IMG/VR virus record: IMGVR_UViG_3300032289_002198
Coordinates: 1-41,412 of that record
Length of the DNA: 41,412 bases
Reading direction: 5' to 3' (one strand)
Source of the DNA: a virus
Shown: positions 2 through 39,865 of the stretch, piece by piece
How positions within the stretch are numbered: position 1 is the first letter of the stretch
Layout of the letters: every line of letters begins with the position of its first letter
The notes under the pieces: generated by a model
What the model saw: only the letters and a program-made list of their open reading frames with translations
Database searches by the model: none
Told to the model about the DNA's origin: nothing
Made by a program: the position numbers and the translations under genes

Positions 2-3000
2 ACCTTGTGTTTCTTTATAAGTATTAAGAGGACCGCTTCTAGAAAAAGTGTCTAATTGACCACCAACTGCGCTGAAATTGCGATCTTTAACACTTGTTGA
101 TATATCACCAGCTAATTGATTTTTTAACTCATTTTGCTGTCTTTTAATAGATTCACTTCTTATTTGAGCTATGCTTATACCGCCACCAACAATACCACCA
201 ATGATTGCTCCTGGGACACCTCCAAACTGCGCTCCTGTAGCGGCACTACCACCAATATTAGCCATTATAGATCCTGCTCCAGCAACATAAGAATTCTCTG
301 AAGCTGCTAGACTAGTTCCTACAATACTAGTTGCTAAACCTCCTAAGCCAATTTTTTGTATTCTTCCTTGTCTCCTCATCTCCATAGCCTGTCTTCTTTG
401 ATTTACATTATTAATAGTTTCTCTAGCAGCTCTTCTAGATTGCTTATCTCCTCCACCAGAAGATAATAAATTTTGTGCCTCTATTTCTGCTTGTAATAAT
501 TGATCGTCGATTTTCTCACTTTTAAGATTATCCATTAAGAAACTACCAGTTCTTAAAAAAGCTCCTCTTACTATTCCTGGTCTGGTATTTTTTTGAATTC
601 TATTTGCTTCGCGCGCTTGATCCGCAGTTGTAGCGCTTCTAAATACTTGACCATAAGTACCAGTACCAAGATCTTGCCTTTGTTGAGCTTGTTGTTTTCT
701 AACATTTGCTAATTCAGTAGTCGCCGCAGTTGCTTTAATTTGCGCATCAGCGGTAGCTTGAGTTTGTTTAGACAAATCATTAAAATAATTTTTAACTTCT
801 TTTGAAACTCCACTGAATTGATCTAAAGTAACTGTGCCTTTTTTTACAGCATCAGTAAATTGAGATATATTCTCTATTCCTTTTCCTTTTAGCTCAGCTC
901 TATTATTTTGAATAACTGAAGCTATTCCTTTTCTTAAATTAGAATTGCCTCCAACTTTTTCTGTTTGAGATTCTAATGATTTTAATTTAGATTGCTCCGC
1001 CCTAGCTAATTCGCTGGTAGTTTTTGCAAAACTTTCTGCTTGATATGCTTGATCTTTAATATCGAATTGGCCAGTCTTTACATCATAAGCCTTTCTTGCT
1101 TCAGTATACTCTATTTCTGCTCTCAAGAGGTCTCTATTAGTTACGCGCTCTCTACCTTTAATTGGAGCTTCAGCGGCTTCTTTTTCTTTTAATAGGGCTT
1201 GCTCTTCTTTCTGTAGATTTTTTAAAGTTATTGGTTCTAGGCCAGTAGTTTTCTTTTGAGCTTCTCTATTAGCATTAAGCTTTCTATTTACTTCTTCAAC
1301 TTTTCTTTGTTGCTCTTGAGTTCTATTTATATCTTTCAATTTAGCAGAAGCTAAATTAACTTCAACATATTCATTCTCAGCGCCCTCTGGAACATATCTT
1401 GGTTGATTTAGAAAATCTTTATATCTTTGTCTTTTCTTTGTTAAAGCTGGAGACATTTCTGGCCCTATAGGGTCAGCATATTGTCTAGATTGCTCTACTT
1501 TTCTTCTTTCTGCTTCTTCACGGATTATTCTGATACCTTCAGTTCTAGCAGTCTCTCTATTCCTTCTTATATTAGGATCAAATTTTTCAGCATACTTTAA
1601 AGTTTTTTCTTCTAATGAATCAAATGCTTTTAAGACTTTTCTTCGAGCTTTTATTTGTTCTTCAATAGGCGCTCCACTTTTTATTAAATCTTCATAATTC
1701 TTTTTTAATGCCTGTGCATTCTTATGCAAAGATTGATGATAATCATTTATAGCTTTTATTTGAGGCGCGCTTAATTTAGTTGTAAGAGATTTTAATACTT
1801 TCGCATATTCTTTATTGCTTTCAAGAAAAACAGCAGCGCCTTCTCCTATTGGCACTTGATCTATACCCATCCTTCCTCTTTTTGCATACTCAGCTCTTTC
1901 TGGTTGAAATAATGAACCATATTGTTTCATGGTATCATCTATACCAAGAGCATGTACTGACTCATGAGCTGTATTTGTAAAATTCATATATTGTTTAGAT
2001 CTAAAGCCAACAGCTCCTTGATTAGTTGCGAAAGCAGCCCAATTATTTTTACTTCTATGTTTTTTATTTGCATATTCTTCTGAAAATACTGGCACTCCCA
2101 TCGCAGCCAATATTCTTAGATTCTCATTTTCAGATTCTGGCGCTGGTTTAGGATTTCTATAAGTTCTACTAGGAGCGGTACGCGCTGTTTTCCATAAATT
2201 TTTCATTGTATCAAAAAAACCACGTTTTGAACCATCTGAAAATTTTTGCAGTTTTCTAGTTCTTAACATATTTGAGGCTTTTTTATTTAATACAAAAGAG
2301 CCATTTTCTAAAAATGCAGGAAAGTTATCTTGATTACCTGAGCCGGGAACTGTGCCTACGAAACCACCTTTAGCGAAACCAGGTAATTTTGACCGAAGAA
2401 AATCCATTACAGTATTACGTCTTTTAACTAATACTGGATGGGTTAATGACTCATTATAAGTTTTTATTCCTTTATTACGCTCTTCTAAATATGATTTAAA
2501 AGATACTTCTTTAAAATTTTCTAATGAAGGATCTTTTATATATTTTTGAATATTTTTCTTTAATTCTTGTTTATATTTAATTAAATCATTAAAATTGACA
2601 CTTTGAGAAGCTTTGCCTTGAGCTCTTAAGATATCTTCAATCATATCTTCATTGAGCTGCATAGGAGGTAATAATTTTTTTATATCTGAATATTTAATAT
2701 TTTTTTCAGCAAAAACTGTCGCGCCTTCAAGTGGTAAATCGGCATAATCATTGCTAATAACTGCCTGCATAGCTAAAGTTTTAGCTGCAGCTGGCGTTTT
2801 AGGATCAAACCCTAATTCTTTATATTTATCCCCATGAATATACTGAGCTAAATAATCTCCATAATTAGCAATATAATTAGGTGTTTTTAATGCTTCATAA
2901 TCTAAACCAAAATGATGCATAGATTCATGGACTGCTGTATTTGAATTTACATATTTTTTATTTTGAAAACTTTTTAAATTTATTATTCCAATATCATCAA

Positions 3001-5902
3001 CTGAACTAGAAGTATCTATGCCCCCAGTTCCTACTGGAATCCCAATAGATGAAAAAAAACCTAAAACATCGTTATATTTTACATAATGAGGTTTAGTTCT
3101 AAATTCCTCTATACTATTAAAACCTCCTCCGATTCCCATTTTCTTAACACTATTCTTATTAAGAACATAACTACCATGAGGTAATGTCGCTGGAACAGAA
3201 TCTACACCCGCAAGCCCTTGTCTATTTATTTTCTCTAAATTATTTAATCCTATCCGCTGTACTTCTTCTGGGCTAAATACAACTTCACCAGGCATTAGTA
3301 ATGCATTAACTAAACCTCCAGCAGTTTCACGTTTCCTAATAGAAACGCCATATCCCAAATCAATATCATCTACTTCGCCACCTTGGCTAAAACCAGGCAA
3401 GTGTTTTTTTAATATAGATTGAACTAATCTTCTATTCTTAAGAATATTTTGTCCTTGACTAGTAGAAGTTAACTCTTCTTCAAATCTTTTTGTAAGAAAA
3501 CCGCTTTTATCAGTGTCATTTAAATTTCGATCCATTCGCCTAAAAGCATTACGACTTGCAATTGTAGAAAATATTGCACTATCTTCTGGATCAATATTTT
3601 CTGTTATATCAAATAAACTTTTTATTTTTAATTTACTTGATTGAATAGCTATAGGCGCGCCTTCTAAAGATATATTTTGTCCAGTTTTTTCAAATATTTT
3701 ACTTATTATCTCTTGAGTAGGTATTTCTCTTCGAATGCCATACCCTAATATTCTTGCATATTTTTTTATATATCTATTGTATAGAGAATCGTGATTTTTT
3801 AAATTATAAGCATCATAATCTACTCCTAAACCATGTACTAATTCATGCAACCCTGTGCCGCGCTTAGTTTTTAATGTATCAGATAAAGAAATAGTATTAA
3901 TTACTGGATCAAATTGGCCTTTAGAATCATTTGGAAGATATGGCATTAATCCTATACCTAAGTTGTTTAATAACAATTTATAATTACTCATGAATTCGCC
4001 GCCGCGAGACATTTGTTTTACGCTGTTCTTATTAAGCACATAACTACCATGAGGTAATGTTGCTGGTACAGAATCTACGCCCGCAAGTCCTTGCCTATTT
4101 AATTTTTGTAAATTACCTAATCCTATCTGCTGTACTTCTTCTGGACTAAATACTATTTCACCCGGCATTAAAAGAGCATTAACATAACCGCCTTGCGCAA
4201 ATTTCTTTCTTTTGTTTAGAGCTCCATATACTGTATCAAGCGTTTCATTTCCATAAATAGGAGGTCTTGTTAAAAATTTATCCATAAAAGGTACAGATGA
4301 AATATAACCAGCAGACCTTCTAGTTATCAAATCGTTAGGATTACTTCCTCTAATAATAGAGGCAGTTCCTTGTAGCATATTATAAGCTTTTGGAGCAAGT
4401 ATGCTTCCAATACCTGCTGCAAAACCAACTTGTAATGTTGGACTAAGAGTATCTAATAAAAAAGTTACCGCTTTAATAACTTCTCTTATTTGATCAAGCA
4501 TTATTTTAAATCCGCTACTCTCAGCTACTTTAGTGCCGAATGAAGCTAGGTCTTGTCCTATTTTTGTTATTTTATTAGATAAAGAATCCGCTGTTAATTC
4601 AGCGTCTTTAGAAAGTGAATTATCTCCCTTTCTAGCTTCTGCTAAAGCTTTATAACTATCAGCAACCCCAGTAATTAATGGAATTGCTATTTTTGCTTGA
4701 CGAACACCACCACCGATAGCATTAGCTACTTCAATAAACGTAGTAGTATTAGAACCTACATTTTGTAATTCTAGATTTAATTTTTCTGCAGCTTTTAATG
4801 TTCCAATAAACTCTCCTCTAGTATTTCTTAGAGAAAAATTTGCCCCCAATATTTCTTTTAATTTTGCTTCAACTGATGGGTCTTGCAATCTATTTATAAT
4901 AGTTCTTAAACCAGTAGAAACAACACTTTCAGATAAACGAGTTGTACTACGAATACTCGTAACTATAGAAGCAAATTCACGAAGTTTATCTAAATTTTTA
5001 TCCGCATTAGGAGAAACTCCTAAACCTAGAACATCACCTCCTAAAATACCTTCAGAAGCAGCAAAAACACCACCAGCGCTTTTAATAGCTTCAATAATGT
5101 TACCAGCTTCGACCGCATACTTTTTAGACAAAGTATTTAATGTACTTAAAAATTTATCAATATTTTTAGTAGATCCGTCAACATCTAATAATCTAAACTG
5201 AGCTATAGCAGATACAACACCTTCTGTAGTTTTTTCTAAATTATCGAAAGTTGGAACTAATTGAGTATTAGCTAGACTTCTCATTAGCCCTTGAATTGTT
5301 TTTAATCCAAAACCAGCTTGAGCTAAAGTATCTGAGGCTTCTAGTAAGTCTGTTGATGCGACACCAACATTTCTACTAAGTTCTAAAATACTAGAGGAGA
5401 ATTTATTAACTTCTGCTGCTGTATTACCAGTTATCTGTTGTAATTTAATTTGAGCACTATTAATTTTTATAATAGCATCAAAACCATAATCAATTGCTTG
5501 TACTATTTTCTGAACACCAGCAGAAGCTACGGCGAACTTTGCAAATTGTGCAAAACGAGTACTAACACCACCAACAAACGAATCAAATAAGTTAACTGTT
5601 TTATTTAATTTTTTAGTTTCTTTTTCTATATTAGAAGTAAAATCTCTATAACTAGAGATTGCTTTTTGAGTATTTCTCTCAATAGAAGAAGACATTCCTT
5701 TGCCGATATTTTCTGTTTCTTGAACTAAACTTCTTGCTTTATTTTTAATCTGATCAAAATTAGCAGCGCTCGCCCCTTTAACAGCTAAGTTAATAGGAAT
5801 AGAGCCGCCCAACTCTTTACGAATTTGAGCGGCTATATCTGAAACGCCTTTTTTAGGGCTAAAGTTAAGTTCTACTTGCCCACGAAGTTTAAAATCGGCC
5901 AT
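2..5902 (-). CDS. Tape measure protein with three embedded zincin-like domains (C-terminus cut by window edge)
   Basis: The reading frame is open from the ATG at 5902 to the left edge, at least 1967 codons without a stop, so the C-terminus is missing. The length, position after tail tube and chaperone-type genes, helical N-terminal half (about residues 1-560), coiled-coil region (about 1400-1800) and late Gly-rich hydrophobic stretch (about 1850-1925) fit a tail tape measure protein, which sets tail length and is ejected with DNA. Segments rich in GG..V..PGE..VLNK (about 567-640, 834-925, 1173-1220) are typical of tape measure proteins. After each comes a metalloprotease-like unit: HELVH at 686 with Glu 747, HESMH at 992 with Glu 1059, HESVH at 1313 with Glu 1354; each Glu sits in an EGA motif. 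I checked that all six sites are in frame with the ATG. The ribosome site AAAGG lies rather far upstream (about 12 bases). Confidence 0.9.
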   Translation of the reverse strand, partial: MADFKLRGQVELNFSPKKGVSDIAAQIRKELGGSIPINLAVKGASAANFDQIKNKARSLVQETENIGKGMSSSIERNTQKAISSYRDFTSNIEKETKKLNKTVNLFDSFVGGVSTRFAQFAKFAVASAGVQKIVQAIDYGFDAIIKINSAQIKLQQITGNTAAEVNKFSSSILELSRNVGVASTDLLEASDTLAQAGFGLKTIQGLMRSLANTQLVPTFDNLEKTTEGVVSAIAQFRLLDVDGSTKNIDKFLSTLNTLSKKYAVEAGNIIEAIKSAGGVFAASEGILGGDVLGLGVSPNADKNLDKLREFASIVTSIRSTTRLSESVVSTGLRTIINRLQDPSVEAKLKEILGANFSLRNTRGEFIGTLKAAEKLNLELQNVGSNTTTFIEVANAIGGGVRQAKIAIPLITGVADSYKALAEARKGDNSLSKDAELTADSLSNKITKIGQDLASFGTKVAESSGFKIMLDQIREVIKAVTFLLDTLSPTLQVGFAAGIGSILAPKAYNMLQGTASIIRGSNPNDLITRRSAGYISSVPFMDKFLTRPPIYGNETLDTVYGALNKRKKFAQGGYVNALLMPGEIVFSPEEVQQIGLGNLQKLNRQGLAGVDSVPATLPHGSYVLNKNSVKQMSRGGEFMSNYKLLLNNLGIGLMPYLPNDSKGQFDPVINTISLSDTLKTKRGTGLHELVHGLGVDYDAYNLKNHDSLYNRYIKKYARILGYGIRREIPTQEIISKIFEKTGQNISLEGAPIAIQSSKLKIKSLFDITENIDPEDSAIFSTIASRNAFRRMDRNLNDTDKSGFLTKRFEEELTSTSQGQNILKNRRLVQSILKKHLPGFSQGGEVDDIDLGYGVSIRKRETAGGLVNALLMPGEVVFSPEEVQRIGLNNLEKINRQGLAGVDSVPATLPHGSYVLNKNSVKKMGIGGGFNSIEEFRTKPHYVKYNDVLGFFSSIGIPVGTGGIDTSSSVDDIGIINLKSFQNKKYVNSNTAVHESMHHFGLDYEALKTPNYIANYGDYLAQYIHGDKYKELGFDPKTPAAAKTLAMQAVISNDYADLPLEGATVFAEKNIKYSDIKKLLPPMQLNEDMIEDILRAQGKASQSVNFNDLIKYKQELKKNIQKYIKDPSLENFKEVSFKSYLEERNKGIKTYNESLTHPVLVKRRNTVMDFLRSKLPGFAKGGFVGTVPGSGNQDNFPAFLENGSFVLNKKASNMLRTRKLQKFSDGSKRGFFDTMKNLWKTARTAPSRTYRNPKPAPESENENLRILAAMGVPVFSEEYANKKHRSKNNWAAFATNQGAVGFRSKQYMNFTNTAHESVHALGIDDTMKQYGSLFQPERAEYAKRGRMGIDQVPIGEGAAVFLESNKEYAKVLKSLTTKLSAPQIKAINDYHQSLHKNAQALKKNYEDLIKSGAPIEEQIKARRKVLKAFDSLEEKTLKYAEKFDPNIRRNRETARTEGIRIIREEAERRKVEQSRQYADPIGPEMSPALTKKRQRYKDFLNQPRYVPEGAENEYVEVNLASAKLKDINRTQEQQRKVEEVNRKLNANREAQKKTTGLEPITLKNLQKEEQALLKEKEAAEAPIKGRERVTNRDLLRAEIEYTEARKAYDVKTGQFDIKDQAYQAESFAKTTSELARAEQSKLKSLESQTEKVGGNSNLRKGIASVIQNNRAELKGKGIENISQFTDAVKKGTVTLDQFSGVSKEVKNYFNDLSKQTQATADAQIKATAATTELANVRKQQAQQRQDLGTGTYGQVFRSATTADQAREANRIQKNTRPGIVRGAFLRTGSFLMDNLKSEKIDDQLLQAEIEAQNLLSSGGGDKQSRRAARETINNVNQRRQAMEMRRQGRIQKIGLGGLATSIVGTSLAASENSYVAGAGSIMANIGGSAATGAQFGGVPGAIIGGIVGGGISIAQIRSESIKRQQNELKNQLAGDISTSVKDRNFSAVGGQLDTFSRSGPLNTYKETQG
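3150..4184 (-). repeat. Direct DNA repeat within tape measure gene
   Basis: Bases about 4020-4184 and 3150-3314 are clearly homologous over roughly 165 bases with scattered, mostly third-position differences. They encode the same linker (NALLMPGE, FSPEEVQ, RQGLAGVDSVPATLPHG, SYVLNKNSVK). The copies are 870 bases (290 codons) apart, so a whole linker plus protease-like unit was duplicated in tandem. A third, more diverged unit follows at about 2384-2240. Confidence 0.9.
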
Positions 5903-12442: not shown

Positions 12443-12827
12443 TAAAAAACCCTTCTAGGCCTGCCCCATTATAGAAAGTTCTGATTCCCTTACCATTTGA
12501 ATCAACTTTATATCTAAATAACTTAGGTATAGTTTTATCCGTCCCTTCTAATAACTTTTTTCTTATAGTTTCTTCTTTATCGTAATCTACTAAAATTATA
12601 TTTTTTCCTTTTGGGAAAATAACTTTTTTGATTTGTTCTTTTAACTTTTGGCATGGCGCACACCAATCAGCACTCACTAATATATAATAAGTTCCCTCTT
12701 TAAAACTCTTATCTATATAAGATTCTTTAATAAAATCATTATATGTTTTAAAACTTCCAGCTTTATCTTGTGAAAAACAATTGTGTGGAAATAGTAAAAC
12801 TAAAAGTATTAAAAGATATCTTACCAT
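12432..12827 (-). CDS. Exported thioredoxin-like protein
   Basis: The 131-residue protein has a Sec signal peptide (about residues 1-19, likely cleavage before Gln20) and a small thioredoxin fold. The active site is DWCAPC with Cys56 and Cys59, and the cis-proline loop is TIPK with Pro101. The ILVDYDKEE strand before it is typical of thioredoxins. The CAPC dipeptide differs from classical CGPC and suggests a periplasmic thiol-disulfide reductase. It follows the papain-like protease gene with a seven-base overlap, so it may act on secreted Cys-rich products of this module; that link is inference. It is on the short side for the family. Confidence 0.85.
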   Translation of the reverse strand: MVRYLLILLVLLFPHNCFSQDKAGSFKTYNDFIKESYIDKSFKEGTYYILVSADWCAPCQKLKEQIKKVIFPKGKNIILVDYDKEETIRKKLLEGTDKTIPKLFRYKVDSNGKGIRTFYNGAGLEGFFNDK

Positions 12828-14761
12828 AAGTTATTATTAATCTCCTGGGCTGGATAACCCTTGAAATTTGAAAGAGCATAAGAGTCTTGCTGTTTTAACA
12901 TTCTGTCTGCATCGTCAGCGTCTACCCAGAATGAGCCTTCTGGTTGATTGTGGCGCTTTGGCCCATCAATCCAATGCTCACCCCATGAATTGACGCAAAG
13001 TAAACCTGGGCGCTTATATTCATCATCAACGCTCGCAAATAGCAAACAATGGGCCCATCTACCTTGGGCTCTAGCGAAACCTTCAGAATCTCGTTTAGAG
13101 GCAAACCCTTGATTAGAACAAACTACAACAGGATAGCCGTTTGCTATAGCATCTCGGGCCTCTTCATATGAGGTAACTAGTGCAGTAGTTTGTATCGGAT
13201 GTTCATCTGCTATGGGCTCTAGTTCGTATGGGAGTCCTTGAAAACCCCAATCTTTAGCCACTTTGCCAGAATATGAAGATAAATCATATTTATCATACTT
13301 CTGTCTTAAAAGGGTTCCATTTTCTTTTACTGCTTTTTGAGCCCAAGAGCCTAAGCTACCGTCCATATTTCTTAGACGGCCTTGTCCTTGTATTACTCTA
13401 CTAGTTCCATAAATCCATTCTGTAGAAGTTAAAACACCTGGCCATTTTTCTGGCTCTTTCCTTAAAAGAATTTCAACAGCCATTAATACTTCTATACCTT
13501 TAGCATAACCATGCGATACACAATTATGCACAGAATATCCATTAGCTATAAAAGAATGATGAGTATCTTTTACTCCTATATCATATACAATTGTTGGTCC
13601 TTCACAATATTGCTTTTTAGTAATAAATTTTAATAAATAATTATTATATCTATAAGAATATTTTTTCTGATTATCTATTTTAAAACTCAATCTAAAAAAT
13701 GGTTTAGCATTAGGATAAGAACCTTTACTTCTTTTATTTTTAGAAATTATCGGATTAAAACCTAATATAATTAATGATTGATACGCTCCATAAATAATAG
13801 ATTTACTTATAGAATCTAAATGCTGTCTTTTATGGTTAATATCGTAATGACCATCTGCTGCAAATAATCCATCTAAAAATACTTGAGAACCAATTGCCCA
13901 TGCGGGAAATTCTTTAGATTTATTATTATAAAAATACTCTCTAAATAATCTACCTAATTCAACTGAATGGATGCGTATTCTCCAAGCTTTGCAATCTTTA
14001 TAATATGAATCTATTTTAGGAGAATATCCTAATTGAGAAAAATATTTTACAATACGCTCAGAAATATCTTGATTGCTGACAGCGAATTCTAATCCACTTT
14101 TAGATGCGTGACCATCTCCTATAAAATAACCTAAAATAAACATTGTATCTTGATATTTAAATATACCATGATTTGGTATTTGTGTAATATTATTAATATT
14201 TATTGGCATTAAAAGAGCATCGTTTTCAGTTAAATCTTTAGCTTGAACCCATTCCGGAGCTAACTGAACGCTAATATTAGAAATGTCTTCACCATTTTTA
14301 ATTTTTAATAATTCTTGTTTACTATATTTTTTATTAATATCGCGATACACAAAAAATTGATGATCTTCAGTGCATTTAATGTTCTCGCCACCACGAATTG
14401 ATAGTTCAATTATAGGTTTAAAAGTTTGAATTTCTCTTGTAGAAATTACTTCAGTTATTTTGCCTTCTGCAGTATATACTTTATCACCAACTTTAATATC
14501 TTCAATATTTTTTATATTAGGACCAAGAACAGTAGTGCCAGCTACAAAACAATCACCTATAGTTTGAGTATTAATAGGAAAAGTGCCATTGCATAATTTA
14601 GTTAATGCTTCATGTAATAGAACTACTTTTTTCTCACCACTTCCAACAAGATTCCAAGCTGCGCTTCCGAATAATCTTGAAAAACTTAAAATCTCATCAT
14701 GAGACTTAGCAATGCTATAATCGCGCTCTTCTGGCGCTATCCAACCAAATTCTTGACTCAT
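12821..14761 (-). CDS. Papain-like (C1) cysteine protease interrupted by an intein
   Basis: The 646-residue precursor has exteins 1-70 and 414-646 and an intein at 71-413. Splicing would give a 303-residue C1-type peptidase reading QTIGD-CVSHG across the junction. The oxyanion Gln is Gln66, the nucleophile is Cys414, the catalytic His is His571 (RWAHC) and the Asn is Asn591 (CVNSWG). The intein therefore blocks the active site until excised, because its +1 residue is the catalytic cysteine. There is no signal peptide, unlike several neighbours, so the enzyme may act in the cytoplasm or be packaged in virions. It lies three bases after the lipid desaturase stop. Precursor processing, fibre maturation or host-protein cleavage are possible roles; the substrate is unknown. 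Confidence 0.88.
   Translation of the reverse strand: MSQEFGWIAPEERDYSIAKSHDEILSFSRLFGSAAWNLVGSGEKKVVLLHEALTKLCNGTFPINTQTIGDCFVAGTTVLGPNIKNIEDIKVGDKVYTAEGKITEVISTREIQTFKPIIELSIRGGENIKCTEDHQFFVYRDINKKYSKQELLKIKNGEDISNISVQLAPEWVQAKDLTENDALLMPININNITQIPNHGIFKYQDTMFILGYFIGDGHASKSGLEFAVSNQDISERIVKYFSQLGYSPKIDSYYKDCKAWRIRIHSVELGRLFREYFYNNKSKEFPAWAIGSQVFLDGLFAADGHYDINHKRQHLDSISKSIIYGAYQSLIILGFNPIISKNKRSKGSYPNAKPFFRLSFKIDNQKKYSYRYNNYLLKFITKKQYCEGPTIVYDIGVKDTHHSFIANGYSVHNCVSHGYAKGIEVLMAVEILLRKEPEKWPGVLTSTEWIYGTSRVIQGQGRLRNMDGSLGSWAQKAVKENGTLLRQKYDKYDLSSYSGKVAKDWGFQGLPYELEPIADEHPIQTTALVTSYEEARDAIANGYPVVVCSNQGFASKRDSEGFARAQGRWAHCLLFASVDDEYKRPGLLCVNSWGEHWIDGPKRHNQPEGSFWVDADDADRMLKQQDSYALSNFKGYPAQEINNNLW
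13523..14551 (-). other. Intein with LAGLIDADG homing endonuclease in the cysteine protease
   Basis: This is a 343-residue in-frame insertion (precursor residues 71-413). It starts with Cys71 in CFVAGTTVLG, has the block B motif NIKCTEDHQFF near 128-137, two LAGLIDADG-type motifs (LGYFIGDGH near 210-218 and LDGLFAADGH near 296-305), and ends SFIANGYSVHN with penultimate His412 and Asn413. The +1 residue is Cys414. All residues needed for splicing appear present. Confidence 0.93.
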
Positions 14762-17329: not shown

Positions 17330-18946
17330 ATTATTGTGCAATATAGATAAGTAGTTATTAATATCTCCGTTAGGCATATGATGCACATCAAAAATTTCTG
17401 GTTTTATTTTAAAAACGCCCGAAAAAATAGCTTCTTCTGTTCCTATGTGTCCTAAGTTTAAAGATTTATCTAAAAAGTCATAAAAATAAGTGTTTAACTC
17501 ATTTATTGCATTAATACCACCTCCAAAGAAAGCTGCCCTTAATACTTTAGATGGTTTTGAAGGACATAGTTGCTCATAACCTTTATATGAATATCCATGT
17601 ATTTCTGTATATATTGGATATGGATATGAAGTTATAAACAAATTATCTGGCTTAATTTTATTAAAATCTATCTTTTCAAAATTTTTCACATTATAACTAT
17701 TAACCAGCCCAGCGTCTATCCAAAAATATCTTTTACCTTTAAAACAATAAGCACTATTATAAGCTGCATATTTTAAAAACTCTATTTTATGTAAAGTAAG
17801 TGAAATATAATCTGGATTTTTAATAATACTGTCCCACATCCAGCTAGATTGAGTCTTCCACTCTTTTGTGCTAGTAATTTCTACAACTCTGTTATGATAG
17901 TACATTCTTCTTATATCTTCTAGATTTCTGAAATGCACTATTGCCTTTTTACCAGCCGTAAGTCTATTTATTTGTTCATAATATCTTTCATCAGCAAAAA
18001 TTACTATTGGAACATTGGCCTCTAATAATTTTTCTAATCCTTTTATATAATGATCCTCAAAATTTCTATCATCTATCTTATCTCTATTTATATCTATTAA
18101 TGCAGTGACTAGTACATTTTCATATTCTGTATGATCTTTATCGGTATTTCTGATTTGTAACGCAAGCTCATCAAATTTATAATAATCTACCCAAGGCAAA
18201 ATTCTATTTTTAGATAATTCTTCAGGAAATAATGTTTCTGGTGTTGTCAGCTCATTTGGTCTTTTATTAACCATTATACTTTCGCCGTCACCGGTATGTA
18301 TAACACATTTTTTATTTAAATAAACGCCCTTAAAACCTAAACCAAAAAATTTTCTATCTATATTCCATTCATTATAATACTTCTCTACTCTACCTAGAAG
18401 AATTAAATCTTCTCTTCTTTTTAAGTTTGGGCTCCCCTGCCAAATAAACCAATGGAAGTGATTTTTAGTTATGCGCCATGGTTTTTTATAAAAGAATGTA
18501 TTATCTATTAATGTATCATCATATGAATCTATACACTCTTCTTGAAAAGTGCGCCAAGATATATCTACAGAACCTATATCTCTATATTTTTCTAATACTT
18601 GTTTTGATAGAGTTAAATATCCTGTGTCTATAAAATACCAATCTTCTTCTAAATAAAAAATATACTTTGTGGAGCAGAAAGATGTCATAAAATCTTGCGC
18701 CCACCACAATCCTCTGTTCTCAGGGAAACAAATAATGTCTGCGATTTCCCCATATTTTTCAACTAAATTTTCAAAAACGCCTTCAACGGCGCTATCATCT
18801 ACAATCACAATTTTTGTAACTATATCCCTAGTTCTAAGAAAAGACTCCATCGTTTTTTCTAACAAATGGAGTCTATTGCAACTTAAAACATAGGTAGTGA
18901 TCTCGCTCTCAGGCTGATCAATAGTATGTATTTTAATTTTAGCCAC
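17321..18946 (-). CDS. Fusion of GT2 glycosyltransferase and HtrL/YibB-type domain
   Basis: The 541-residue protein has two parts. Residues about 15-250 form a GT-A family 2 transferase: [16 protein letters not shown] at the start, VIVDDS (Asp50-Asp51) binding nucleotide, [11 protein letters not shown] near 74-84 and the metal-binding EED (100-102). Residues about 275-541 resemble the HtrL/YibB family (VTALIDINR, then FADERYY, FWIDAG and a late FFGG), which is linked to surface polysaccharide synthesis. The start is GTG with a weak ribosome site, and the gene overlaps the preceding one by eight bases, so coupling is likely. It probably adds sugars to fibres, virion proteins or host glycans; the acceptor is unknown. 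Confidence 0.75.
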
Positions 18947-20552
18947 GTTTTAATACCATTAAATTATTAACAAACCAACCCATATAATAACCTTGAGTCA
19001 CATGATTAAGAATAGAATTTTCTATATCATTATCTCTTATAAAACCTTCTTTATTAAATTTATCTTCCCAATATTCTTTTGGTTGACAATTTATATGACC
19101 GGTGCCACCTTGCCCAGGTTTAGCAGCAGTCCATATAATTACGCCGCCAGGAGCAACATTTTTGCATACTGCTTTAACTACATTATCAGATAATTTTTCA
19201 TGTATATGTTCTGCAACTTCTAAGCATATTACTATATTGCCTTGATCATTTACAGTAAATAAATCTTCATGGAATAAATTTGGCCTACCTTTTACTTTAG
19301 GATCAATGTCGTATCCTACTGCATCAAAACCTATATCTCTTAACGCATTAACATAAGTTCCTAAACCACAACCGATATCTACTATTTTGGCGTCTGGTAC
19401 AGCATGATTTTTAAACCAAGAAGCTAAATTTTGAGCAAAAGGCTTTTCTTCTTCATCTATTTGCTCTAGATTACAATTTTCACTAATTTGATACCAACCA
19501 TTGCCAGTGTAAACATTCATAACGTCAGTAAAATATTTTTCATATTTTGGAGCTATATTTTCTAATGAGAATTTCTCACCTTGCTTGCGGCAATCGGCTG
19601 GGTTTATTTTATCCACATTTAATGCTGCGTTTACAAAATCTTCAAAAGTGCGACAGCGGAACCCAGTTACACCATGCAAGTTGTTTTCCGTGGCCGCACC
19701 CCAGTCAGTGGTAATCGTAGGTGTGCCGGAAATCAAATTTTCAACCTGAACCCCACCGAATGGCTCAACATACATGCTAGGTAAGAAGCTGGCCTTTGCC
19801 TTCTTCATTAATTCTTTTCTTTTAGCTAAATCAGCATATCCAACGTATTCACAATGAGACGGTAAATGATACCCCTCTTCTTTTTGCCCAGCGACAATCA
19901 GTTTCGCTCCTATTTTTTCTGTGACTTGAATGGCTATATTAACGCCCTTGCCGTCGTAAACGCGCCCAAGGTATAAAAAGTAATCATCTTTCTTATCACA
20001 GTATTCAAATTCATTAAGGTCAAAATAGTTGGGTATAACTACATCATACCAACTTTGACGGCACTCACCAACATTTTGCAGTCCACAATAAGCATGATAG
20101 ATAGCATAAGACTCAAAAATTTTCCATTGAGCCCAATGCCCACCCGCATAACCAATTCCGGGCTCGACGCAAATCAAGTCTTGATGCGCGTCACAAACAG
20201 GCCTTACGCCACTACCCCAGAACGGTAGTATAAAATCGTGCTGTTGTTTGCGCTTGCCAACTTCTGCAATCGCATTTCGGTAAAACGTTTGATACGCATG
20301 ATCGTTAACGTCAAACTTAAAAAAGTTTTTGCGCCAATCATACGACCCGTAAGCGATTTCTAAATCACGGTTGGTTGTTACTGTAACGTGTTCATCGCAG
20401 TCCAGCTCCGAATCTTCGTGGCCGTAATGAATGATAGTATGCCCGCGCGGGCGCATCATCTTTGCAAACTTCACAACTTTTTGCGTGTAGGCACAACTTA
20501 CGTACTCTTTGTTTGAAACAGTGTGCGGTAAACCTAGAATGTGAAAACGCAT
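18939..20552 (-). CDS. Fusion of GT4-like glycosyltransferase and SAM methyltransferase
   Basis: I place the start at ATG 20552 ([13 protein letters not shown]), not the GTG at 20591, because a promoter-like GTGTATAAT lies between them. The N-terminal part (about residues 1-345) is a GT-B glycosyltransferase: [12 protein letters not shown] near 192-203 and EPFGGV.VENLISG near 263-276 are the family 4 donor-site motifs. The C-terminal part (about 360-537) is a class I methyltransferase with VDIGCGLG at 391-398 and ICLEVAEHI after it. The GT part is visibly richer in GC than the methyltransferase part, suggesting separate origins. The enzyme could make or methylate a surface glycan. Confidence 0.8.
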
Positions 20553-20582
20553 GGTTATTGGTACTCTTTGATTATGCAGTAG

Positions 20583-20592
20583 ATTATACACT
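20583..20592 (-). promoter_or_regulatory. AGTGTATAAT promoter-like element upstream of GT4-methyltransferase gene
   Basis: The minus strand reads AGTGTATAATCTAC, one base different from the consensus GGTGTATAAT. It overlaps the stop codon of the sulfotransferase-like gene and lies 31 bases before ATG 20552, a spacing matching the other copies. This supports the ATG start for the downstream gene. Confidence 0.5.
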
Positions 20593-28955: not shown

Positions 28956-30152
28956 TTAAGTTCCGGTGTCACCAGCCAATACGTAACTGTCTGTACCTAC
29001 GGGGATAATTGAGATGGCTGCATAACGACCTGCTGTTTTTGTTTGACTGGATCTATTATTCAAAGTAGCACCAGACGGTGACACTGTTACTTGGCCTGTA
29101 TTCAACTGTAGTAAAGTGCAGCTGAAGTTAGCTTCCAAACTTGCTGGGAGCGTTACTGTAACGGCAGCAGTAGCTGTAAACTCAAGTTGCTTGCCGTTGT
29201 CTGCGTTGGTGAGTGTGTAACCAGTGGCGCCGGATACTACTCTTAAGCTCGAACCGTACTTGTACGCTGAAGAGTAAATGTCTGTGACTGTGTTTCCGAC
29301 TGCACCAGTAGCTCCTTGTGCCCCAGTAGCACCTTGTACGCCCGTAGCGCCCGTTACACCTGTTGCGCCAGTCGTACCAACTCCTGTTGCACCGGCAGCA
29401 CCAGTAGCTCCTTGCGCGCCGGTTGCTCCTACCGGGCCTTGTGCGCCAGTAAGAATTTTAATGAAAAGAATATTGTGGTTGTTAGCAAAACCAGTTGTGC
29501 CGGTACCGCCAGAATCAGAAAGAGTCACAGAAATTACATCATAAGTTGTAAGCTCTGTCACTGCTCCTGTCACTAAAAATTTCTGATAATTAGCCGATAC
29601 GTTTTTATCTTGTAAAATAACAAAATCGCCTGCATTAAGCGTGTGAATAAACAAGTTAATGTCTTGATTATCCGCATTAAGATGGCTTATATGTAGTGCT
29701 GTGGCCGCTGTTTGCGTAGCAGAATTATAGATGATGTGCTGAGAGGTAGGATCGCCCGAAGTCACGCTAGTTTTGATCTTATAATTAAAGATCGAGCTTG
29801 ATTCACCGGGAGTACCTTGAGTACCCTGCGGTCCTGTTGCTCCTTGCGTTCCGGTAGCGCCTGTCGCTCCAGTTAAACCAGTTGCGCCAGTTGTGCCTGC
29901 CGGACCTTGTGTACCAGTGGCCCCTGTGGCACCTACCGGACCTTGTGTGCCAGTAGCTCCTGTTGCGCCTGCCGGACCTTGTGTACCAGTGGCGCCTACC
30001 GGACCTTGTGTGCCAGTAGCTCCTGTTGCGCCTGCCGGACCTTGTGTACCAGTGGCGCCTACCGGACCTTGTGTGCCAGTAGCTCCTGTTACGCCAGTAG
30101 CTCCTGCAACGCCAGTTGCGCCAATATTTATATCACCACCAATAAATCTCAT
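28956..30152 (-). CDS. Collagen-like fibre protein
   Basis: The 398-residue protein has two Gly-X-Y collagen-like stretches (about residues 11-118 and 236-288; GAT, GTQ, GPV and GPA triplets), which form trimeric stalks in phage fibres. Between them is a small beta domain ([12 protein letters not shown] to ILFIKIL), and the C-terminal beta domain (about 295-398; [19 protein letters not shown], then [18 protein letters not shown]) is common in phage fibres. The ATG overlaps the preceding stop as TAATG. A trimeric tail or head fibre is likely. Confidence 0.85.
29941..30066 (-). repeat. Perfect 63-base tandem repeat in the collagen-like gene
   Basis: Bases 29941-30003 and 30004-30066 are identical 63-base units, each encoding seven Gly-X-Y triplets, followed by a partial third copy at 30067-30090. 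Perfect identity points to recent slippage or recombination, so the stalk length may vary between relatives. Confidence 0.95.
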
Positions 30153-36514: not shown

Positions 36515-39500
36515 CTATCTTTTTGGTCTTCCATAGAAATTAGGTGAAATGTTAGCAAGTGGGCCAGAAGCATATAATTTTTGGTTATTGTTTATAGATT
36601 TATGATTTTGAGTTCCAGATAAAAATCCAAGAATATTATAAGTTGGTGGTACAACCATTATTCTACCAGTCTGTCTTGCTCCCATATTAGCCATGACTAA
36701 TGAGCTATATCTATCTTTACGCATTCTAGATTTTTTTCCTGTGCCTACTTTTGTTTCTGGAGTGTCCCATCGTTCTGAACCAGTAGGTGTTTTAGTATGT
36801 ACTATACTAGATAGTTCTGATTTAAGCTCTTCAATCTCAAACATACAATCTTCTAAAGTATCATATAAACCTATTTTTTCTTCAATATCACTATATTTAA
36901 TACCTGAATCTTCTATTTTTTTCTTATCTTCTTGATGTGCAATAGCTAGGGTTACACTATCAAAATCAGGAAATAAAAGAAGTTTTTGCTCTAAATCATA
37001 TTTTAAACCATGATTTGCTTCTTGAACCCATTTTTGATTAACAAATTGGCACATAGTTAAAATATGTAAACCAGGTAAATCATCTGTTATTTGTGGATTA
37101 CCTTCTTCTATTATAGGATAAATTGAGATTGACCCATCTCTGGGTGTAGCTAAAGCCTGTTCTAAGGTTCTGCCGCCACCTTGAGCATCCATATATATTC
37201 CAGCGCAAGGGAATACACTCATTAAATCTCTTATTTTTTGAACACAGTATTGGAAATAATCATTTTCCTTTACTATTCCAGCCAAAACTTTTTGCTGATG
37301 TTTCTTCCTATTAATTGTCCAACAATTAACAATTCTGGTGTGGTCTTCATGTAGTTCTAATACGGTAATCGCCATGTTATCAACTTCGGATGCGGGGTCG
37401 ACGCCAAGAACATATTTTAAATTTTTGTCTCCATTTATTTTTGCTGTATATATAATTTTTTTATCATTTATTGTAATACTATTCTTGCTATTAGCTACAC
37501 AAGATCTTATTAAACTACTTTTAATAAAACCGGCAGAGTCTTTACTAAATACTGCCCCGTATTCTCTATTATACGCATCATTAGTCATACTTGCTCTAGC
37601 TCTAGCAACAGTATTAGCATCCATGATGCCGGGAGGAATTAATTCATAAGGTATTCTTACTATTGAATAATCTTTCCAGTTTAATTTATGTATCTCGTCT
37701 TCACCCATTATGCCTTCGAGTTTTTTCATATCTCCACGGCTTTCTATAATGGTTTTATAGACTTTCCAATATCTTGCAAAATGTTCAAAGTCATAAGTAC
37801 ATGTTCCAGAAAGTATTGACTGGTTTCCGCCTTTAGAAGCAAAATTTTCTTCCATTTCAGCAGTCCAAGTACCTTCTTTAATCATATATTCTCTTTTAAA
37901 GAATAAGTTCATATTCTCGATAGGATTTTTTGCAACTGCGCCGAAACCAGAGATAACAACTTCATATATTTCTGGATTTACTGACCCGAACTCGTCCATG
38001 ATAACTGTGTGTGCTCTTAAACCTCTAATTGTTTGGCCATCGCCAACGGGAACAAAGTGAGCTTCACTTTTCCCTATAAAAAATGAGCATTTATCTTGGA
38101 ATGTATGGGGTCCGTCATTTCTCCCGCATGTAGATCTATAAACATCTCCAGCGTCCCACATTTTATTTGCTTCTTGGAACACGAATTTTGATTGTCTATA
38201 TGCCGCGCCGCAAACGACTATCTTAGAGCCAGGCACTAACCTTAGCTTTAACATAACATATAAAGATAATAAAAATGTATTATGGCTAATATAACCATTG
38301 CTTAAAAAGCTATGATCATTTGGAATATGAACATCATAAGTGTCATTTTCAGATTTTTCTATATTTTCTATAGTACTATAATAATAATTACTATTATATA
38401 TTTTTTCTAACTCTATATATTCATTAGAGTCTTTTGCAAAATCGTATATTTTTAATATCTTTTTAAGTGTTTTATTACTTATGTCGTAAGTAGATAATCT
38501 TGATTGAGATACTAACTTTGATTTATAAGAACACGCTTTTTTAGAAAAAAAACGTTTTTCTTCTTTTCTTCTTTTTTCTAATTTAAATATTAAATCATTA
38601 ATCAAAACTTTTGGTATGTTACCTTTATTTGGATTACTCTTTTTACTTAATAAGTGATTAAGTTTTAACACCTTTCTTTTACAAACAAAACCTATATATT
38701 TTGCGTAATTTTTAATAGACTCTCCATCACATATATATAATTTATAACTTTTAAATCTTTTATTGTTACAAACAGTATAGTTTTCTGATATTCTACTAAT
38801 TATACCAAAACATAATAAAACTTGCTGAACTTGTTTAATAAGTTTTTCAGATACTGATGAATAACCTATTAAATTTTTTGCTACGTGGCCATCAGTATCC
38901 ATAAGACCACGAATAAATGCTGCAAGATTTTTGCTGCCAGATTCTCTTATAATTCTTGGTATGTTTTTATCATGTGCTTTTTTATTATATAGGCCATAAT
39001 AATTATTTATATCTTTACTGATTTGTTTGCCATAAAAAACATAATTAAAAGGCGCAATGAAACCAGGTTTCTTATTAAAGAATTTTTGCCCTATTTCACA
39101 CCATTTATCTACAAGTTCTTTATCTGTATTAGTAAATAATATTTTACTTTCCTGCGAAACCATGCCGTCGCCAACAATAGCTCCTAGCCACCAAGCAATA
39201 TCTTCATTTATATCTTTATGCTTATTTTTAAGTTTTATAACTTTTCTACTTATTGGTACAATATCGCCTATTTTTAGGTCTTCAAGATTTACCCATTCTA
39301 TTTTATTATTTCTTAAAGTTCTAATCGGGTGATTATTAGTGCCTTCTAAAGAAATGCCTAGATTATTTATAATTTTTATTGTTGGAGTTTTACCATTATA
39401 AAAAGCATAATCTGTTTTATTCCAGCCATTTTCACCATAAAAGTTTGTTACTGTTTTATAGTGTGTCAAAGGCAATAATTGATTTTTATCAAGTTCTAAA

Positions 39501-39865
39501 AACTCTTCGAAATCTATTATGCCGTTTTCAGTAACACACATAGTATCTTTAGTTATGCATTTACTAAAACCGCGACTGCCGATAAGCATTGGGAACGGCC
39601 TCGTCCACAATTCTTCTAAAACTAATGCCTGCATTGGTGATAAAGTTATATTTAATAATATCTTTGCAGCCCACCATAAATAATTGGCTGTAGACATCAT
39701 TCTAACTATATCATATGCTGGAATTTTACCAGTTTTAATATCTAAAGGATTAAAAGCTTTAGATGCAGCAGTTAATTGACTTGGATTTAGCCTAGTATAA
39801 GCAAAATCCTTCATATCGTAAAATTCGTTGGCTATTTTGAGGATTTTCTTATCCATTCGATCCAC
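36515..39865 (-). CDS. Terminase large subunit interrupted by an intein
   Basis: The 1116-residue precursor has exteins 1-102 and 530-1116 and an intein at 103-529. The spliced 689-residue product has a Walker A-like IGSRGFSK joined to T530, Walker B VIMDEF (621-626), the coupling motif ILSGTCTYD (684-692), and nuclease acidic residues Asp823 (LGVDPASE) and Asp893 (YMDAQGGG). It cuts and packages DNA into proheads. The frame opens at GTG 39865; ATG 39856 (residue 4) is an equal candidate. The gene overlaps the nuclease gene by 34 bases. No small terminase subunit is recognisable next to it. Confidence 0.9.
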   Translation of the reverse strand: MDRMDKKILKIANEFYDMKDFAYTRLNPSQLTAASKAFNPLDIKTGKIPAYDIVRMMSTANYLWWAAKILLNITLSPMQALVLEELWTRPFPMLIGSRGFSKCITKDTMCVTENGIIDFEEFLELDKNQLLPLTHYKTVTNFYGENGWNKTDYAFYNGKTPTIKIINNLGISLEGTNNHPIRTLRNNKIEWVNLEDLKIGDIVPISRKVIKLKNKHKDINEDIAWWLGAIVGDGMVSQESKILFTNTDKELVDKWCEIGQKFFNKKPGFIAPFNYVFYGKQISKDINNYYGLYNKKAHDKNIPRIIRESGSKNLAAFIRGLMDTDGHVAKNLIGYSSVSEKLIKQVQQVLLCFGIISRISENYTVCNNKRFKSYKLYICDGESIKNYAKYIGFVCKRKVLKLNHLLSKKSNPNKGNIPKVLINDLIFKLEKRRKEEKRFFSKKACSYKSKLVSQSRLSTYDISNKTLKKILKIYDFAKDSNEYIELEKIYNSNYYYSTIENIEKSENDTYDVHIPNDHSFLSNGYISHNTFLLSLYVMLKLRLVPGSKIVVCGAAYRQSKFVFQEANKMWDAGDVYRSTCGRNDGPHTFQDKCSFFIGKSEAHFVPVGDGQTIRGLRAHTVIMDEFGSVNPEIYEVVISGFGAVAKNPIENMNLFFKREYMIKEGTWTAEMEENFASKGGNQSILSGTCTYDFEHFARYWKVYKTIIESRGDMKKLEGIMGEDEIHKLNWKDYSIVRIPYELIPPGIMDANTVARARASMTNDAYNREYGAVFSKDSAGFIKSSLIRSCVANSKNSITINDKKIIYTAKINGDKNLKYVLGVDPASEVDNMAITVLELHEDHTRIVNCWTINRKKHQQKVLAGIVKENDYFQYCVQKIRDLMSVFPCAGIYMDAQGGGRTLEQALATPRDGSISIYPIIEEGNPQITDDLPGLHILTMCQFVNQKWVQEANHGLKYDLEQKLLLFPDFDSVTLAIAHQEDKKKIEDSGIKYSDIEEKIGLYDTLEDCMFEIEELKSELSSIVHTKTPTGSERWDTPETKVGTGKKSRMRKDRYSSLVMANMGARQTGRIMVVPPTYNILGFLSGTQNHKSINNNQKLYASGPLANISPNFYGRPKR
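38279..39559 (-). other. Intein with LAGLIDADG homing endonuclease in terminase
   Basis: This 427-residue insertion starts with Cys103 (CITKDTMCVTENG), has block B-like GTNNHPIRT near 175-183, endonuclease motifs LGAIVGDGM near 227-235 and IRGLMDTDGHV near 318-328, and ends SFLSNGYISHN with His528 and Asn529. The +1 residue is Thr530. It splits the Walker A Lys-Thr pair, a site where phage terminase inteins are known. Confidence 0.94.

Follow-up and report, generated by a model that had tools for sequence, protein, structure and literature searches.

The tape measure protein (TMP) encoded at the end of this virus contig raises the question of whether a phage tail ruler carries three consecutive zincin metalloproteases, as the initial annotation of the locus proposed, and, if so, what they would cut. 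Enzymes within TMPs and zincins within ejected phage proteins are each already known. Here we analyze the whole 41,412-base virus record (the window) and compare its TMP with that of a relative.

The tape measure protein and its HExxH units

The TMP frame is a single open reading frame without stops that remains open at the end of the contig, so the C-terminus of the protein is missing. The encoded protein matches PHROG 28 (tail length tape measure; E=3.3e-17) and the Pfam family PhageMin_Tail (PF10145; E=1.3e-13), and the relative has a homologous TMP in the same gene order. Curated families of M23, NlpC/P60, transglycosylase, and lysozyme domains had zero matches in either TMP. The TMP, its three units, and the candidate zinc ligands of each unit are located in the window as follows.

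2..5902, (-) strand: TMP open reading frame P0001, 1967 aa, matching PHROG 28 and PF10145 and homologous to the 2275-aa TMP of the relative
4748..5392, (-) strand: PhageMin_Tail (PF10145) region, residues 171-385
3407..3988, (-) strand: unit 1 core, residues 639-832, homologous to units 2 and 3
3833..3847, (-) strand: HELVH of unit 1, residues 686-690
3662..3664, (-) strand: E747 (EGA), candidate third zinc ligand of unit 1
2399..3082, (-) strand: unit 2 core, residues 941-1168, homologous to unit 3
2915..2929, (-) strand: HESMH of unit 2, residues 992-996
2726..2728, (-) strand: E1059 (EGA), candidate third zinc ligand of unit 2
1493..2131, (-) strand: unit 3 core, residues 1258-1470, orthologous to the one unit that the relative has
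1952..1966, (-) strand: HESVH of unit 3, residues 1313-1317, on helix 51-61 of the AF2 model
1841..1843, (-) strand: E1354 (EGA), candidate third zinc ligand of unit 3, immediately ahead of helix 98-104 in the AF2 model

The HExxH motifs (686, 992, and 1313) and the EGA motifs (747, 1059, and 1354) lie exactly where the initial annotation had placed them; the spacing from first His to Glu, given there as 42-68 residues, measures 61, 67, and 41. The protein has 17 His and 125 Glu among its 1967 aa, a composition from which 0.009 HExxH motifs would be expected; three are observed, and none of 20,000 shuffles of the TMP contained even two. The cores that surround the motifs share about 19-29% protein identity, with local-alignment z-scores against shuffles of 8.8 (units 1-2), 7.5 (units 1-3), and 10.6 (units 2-3). 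The homology persists when HExxH is masked (4.5, 3.5, and 7.5, respectively), which argues that the units are paralogous modules and not three chance motifs.

The TMP of the relative (2275 aa) is identical in two IMG/VR contigs, 3300032116_000037 and 3300031857_020694, and shares 85% identity with the window TMP over residues 1-545. It carries one HExxH unit (HEMAHALNID...EGIATFLE) that is 44% identical to unit 3 of the window and retains both HExxH and the Glu of EGxA. Unit 3 has five His residues, and only the two in HExxH are retained in its ortholog. Across all four units, HExxH is present with its catalytic Glu, the two His of this motif occupy the only common His columns, and neither the catalytic Glu nor the EGxA Glu varies. 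The motifs are thereby in frame and conserved amid divergence, as had been claimed, and the predicted catalytic residues are selectively retained. Judged from sequence, three tandem HExxH...E metallopeptidase-like modules are a real feature of this TMP. When we searched IMG/VR, GTDB genomes, and GenBank phages for further kin of the TMP, the units, the linkers, and one neighboring tail gene, we found just the two contigs of this one relative, plus linkers. The relative (128 kb) has three further open frames of at least 100 aa with HExxH, all unrelated to the units. In C1:20001-40000 of the relative, two such unrelated frames of about 398 aa have similarly placed motifs (HELYHISFFH and HEMLHVAFFH).

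Other genes in the window were also noted. A terminase-related open reading frame of 1116 aa (36515-39865, (-) strand) contains an intein (LAGLIDADG_3, E=2.9e-22; Intein_splicing, E=2.2e-9), and the parts flanking the intein match terminase PHROGs. The 646-aa frame at 12821-14761, (-) strand, has overlapping PHROG matches to ribonucleotide reductase, DNA polymerase, terminase, and LAGLIDADG, suggesting a second intein. At 18939-20591, (-) strand, a glycosyltransferase (phrog_3408, E=2e-203) is joined in one protein with a methyltransferase-like C-terminal part, and a collagen-like tail fiber protein is encoded at 28956-30152, (-) strand.

Resemblance to zinc metallopeptidases

None of the curated Pfam or NCBIfam zincin models was passed by the window units; their resemblance to metallopeptidases is suggested by weak matches in several libraries. 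These include phrog_87 (metallo-protease; E=0.0023 for unit 1 and E=0.09 for the unit of the relative), the mini-zincin of PDB 3e11 (E=0.027, aligned along TxVHExxHxxGID), and the profiles SprT-like (0.01), DUF6782 (0.14), and Tox-MPTase5 (0.0021), of which SprT-like and Tox-MPTase5 fall below the curated cut-offs. Comparison by hhalign with nine N4-type domains gave a probability of 42%, a P of 2.6e-4, and a score of 36 over only about 30 columns. A second run of this comparison with the zincin of the N4 virion RNA polymerase (vRNAP) scored 33, whereas 60 controls with shuffled columns reached 21 at most and two unrelated alignments scored 14; since the alignment covers just a strand and the HExxH helix, the signal partly reflects the motif itself. 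The N4 vRNAP domain was assigned to the zincins via profile searches (PMC5512222), and it too has no Pfam metallopeptidase match. Absence from Pfam is therefore weak evidence against the window units. The units share with the N4 vRNAP and polyvalent-protein MPTase domains an HExxH followed by a Glu, predicted for the units to lie at a later helix, within very large ejected phage proteins, whereas the N4 vRNAP differs from the window TMP in being a DNA-accompanying RNA polymerase, with NEFMAW in place of EGxA as its second motif. Zincins of polyvalent proteins are reported in one to five copies per protein (PMC5512222).

Within the zincins, a gluzincin assignment is favored for the units, because the EGxA Glu is invariant and the Asp at position +10 from the first His, characteristic of Asp-zincins, is missing in three of the four units. 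The third zinc ligand is most likely the EGxA glutamate. The best metallopeptidase sequence match in the PDB, the mini-zincin Acel_2062 (PDB 3e11, PF06262; PMC3890501), has Asp at +10 as its predicted third ligand, whereas here units 1 and 2 have Y, unit 3 has D, and the unit of the relative has K. An Asp-zincin or mini-zincin (PF06262, HExxHxxGxxD) was ruled out as the main assignment, as the +10 Asp is unconserved and a Pfam match is absent. All four units do have an Asp at +9, which may play a structural part or act as a noncanonical ligand.

Structure prediction with AF2 from the four-sequence alignment gave a model of unit 3 with a pLDDT of 67 and a pTM of 0.67, in which helix 51-61 carries HExxH and EGA is placed at helix 98-104; confidence is low around the active site, and residues 19-39, 44-49, and 67-95 fall below 50. 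Prediction of unit 2 from its single sequence reached a pLDDT of 38. A Foldseek search of the PDB and BFVD with the unit 3 model matched helical bundles alone and did not find a zincin. The interpretation put forward in the initial annotation is thus partly supported: the invariant Glu favors a gluzincin-like set of ligands, and several weak matches suggest a metallopeptidase; for the putative zincin fold, the model is of low confidence and had no fold match.

Like the TMPs of TM4, P23-45, and T5, and like transglycosylase-bearing TMPs, the window TMP would contain an enzyme domain. The peptidoglycan-hydrolyzing motif (motif 3) of the TM4 TMP aids infection of stationary-phase cells (PMC1796659), the TMP gp96 of the Thermus phage P23-45 bears a metallopeptidase (PMC10770324), and a zinc carboxypeptidase is reported for T5 pb2 (PMC11445458). 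In our searches, gp96 matched Pfam M23 (PF01551, E=1.3e-21), and HExxH was absent from both gp96 and pb2; the window TMP, in contrast, has three tandem HExxH units. A peptidase of the P23-45 or T5 type was ruled out, since HExxH is missing from gp96 and pb2 and M23 does not match the window TMP. The open-license literature that we searched yielded no description of a TMP with HExxH units in tandem, and the arrangement looks new.

Linkers and the gain or loss of units

The units are separated by repeated linkers.

4025..4192, (-) strand: linker 1, residues 571-626 (GGYVNALLMPGEIVFSPEEV...DSVPATLPHGSYVLNK), 85.7% identical in DNA to linker 2
3152..3319, (-) strand: linker 2, residues 862-917
2279..2368, (-) strand: linker 3, a half-linker, residues 1179-1208 (GGFVGTVPGSGNQDNFPAFLENGSFVLNKK), with weak similarity to parts of tail proteins from Synechococcus and Gordonia phages
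2354..4084, (-) strand: segment with units 1 and 2, residues 607-1183, absent from the relative as judged by alignments

Two linkers had been described as recent DNA duplicates. The identity of linkers 1 and 2 (85.7% over 168 nt) is indeed far above that of the cores, but they are too diverged to be very recent duplicates. Each unit had also been described as preceded by a linker: linkers do lie between the units, and linker 3 is the second half of a linker alone. From the alignments with this one relative, we infer that a 577-residue segment holding units 1 and 2, either gained by the window TMP or lost from that of the relative, interrupts a linker contiguous in the relative (between NRQGL and TVPGSGN, with one extra residue). 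High linker identity beside diverged cores is compatible with linker-core cassettes being gained or lost, or with the linkers being homogenized.

By tblastn, linker-like stretches were found in tail proteins of Synechococcus, Gordonia, and mycobacterial phages, all weakly (best E about 0.005). In gp196 of cyanophage S-H34, a Phage_lysozyme domain (PF00959, E=1.6e-10) is flanked on both sides by similar linkers, two in all, and a mycobacteriophage TMP that weakly matches the linker region has a transglycosylase domain. The S-H34 protein, an 'endolysin' tail protein encoded at positions 2138-4345 of its locus, resembles the window TMP in that an enzyme domain stands between two GG/VPGxGxxD/FVLN linkers; it differs in that this domain is Phage_lysozyme and not HExxH, and the protein is not a TMP. 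Since such linkers flank enzymes in other phage tail proteins, the zincin units would, by analogy, sit where a tail-borne lytic enzyme would.

Possible roles of the modules

Peptidoglycan is the main target of the known TMP enzymes. For the window TMP, the reading that we favor, tentatively, is that it delivers tandem gluzincin-like metallopeptidase modules through the tail that most likely cut host envelope protein, with zincin fold, zinc binding, activity, and target all putative. Between its flexible linkers, the TMP would hold three paralogous HExxH...E modules, probably catalytic zinc metallopeptidases, that are carried inside the tail and expelled with the TMP at infection. They would then fold or act in the host envelope, where they presumably exit, and most likely cleave an envelope or surface protein, easing passage of the TMP and DNA, comparable to the peptidoglycan-active domains of other TMPs. 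Linker-core cassettes may be gained and lost through recombination at the repeated linkers. A copy number of three versus one between close relatives fits an accessory, host-directed role better than essential morphogenesis, and such a role is favored by this difference together with the fast divergence of the cores and the strict retention of the active site.

The chief rival to an envelope-protein target is self-processing, in which the units would cut the TMP or its tail partners at assembly or ejection, for example at the linkers, and thereby trim or release pieces; we consider this rather unlikely. TMP processing is common (PMC1796659), autoproteolysis has been proposed, as an alternative to host targeting, for zincins of polyvalent phage proteins that are injected, P1 DdrB among them (PMC5512222), and the repeated linkers that bracket each unit offer potential cut sites. 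However, a single protease would be enough for this purpose, yet the window TMP has three divergent ones and the relative manages with one; moreover, the cores evolve fast (44% identity versus 85% for the TMP N-terminus), which is unexpected for a fixed internal cut site.

It is improbable, in our estimate, that the units, once ejected, work as effector proteases in the host cytoplasm and attack host or defense proteins there. Such a role has been proposed for zincins in phage proteins that accompany DNA (PMC5512222), and copy variation among relatives was read as target diversity for the SprT-like peptidases of jumbo phages (PMC7824862), but the TMP is thought to be lodged in the envelope as a channel and not to be a free protein (PMC11445458), and the units are placed mid-protein in the window TMP. 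We give similarly little credence to structural filler, that is, to zincin-derived modules that add length or binding capacity to the ruler and whose catalysis is unused. Extra units would lengthen the ruler, known peptidases are only weakly similar to them, and copy number varies; against this reading, the catalytic Glu and three candidate ligands are invariant in four units that have diverged and that have no further His in common. Finally, a coincidental occurrence of HExxH and EGA in a helical, non-zincin TMP, which the low-confidence model and absent fold match would allow, is very improbable given the 0.009 motifs expected per protein and their retention by all four homologous units.

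Returning to the favored reading of host-directed envelope proteases, a bolder form of it, which we regard as speculative, is that the TMP delivers an array of three functionally diversified gluzincins, cassette-swapped via tail-protein linkers, as a protease battery for different host envelope proteins. If the HExxH units are proteases within the ruler, some phages bring protein-cutting enzymes to the host via the tail tube. The window and its relative, with three units and one, form a naturally occurring pair for comparison, and tail proteins may exchange enzyme cassettes by way of the repeated linkers.
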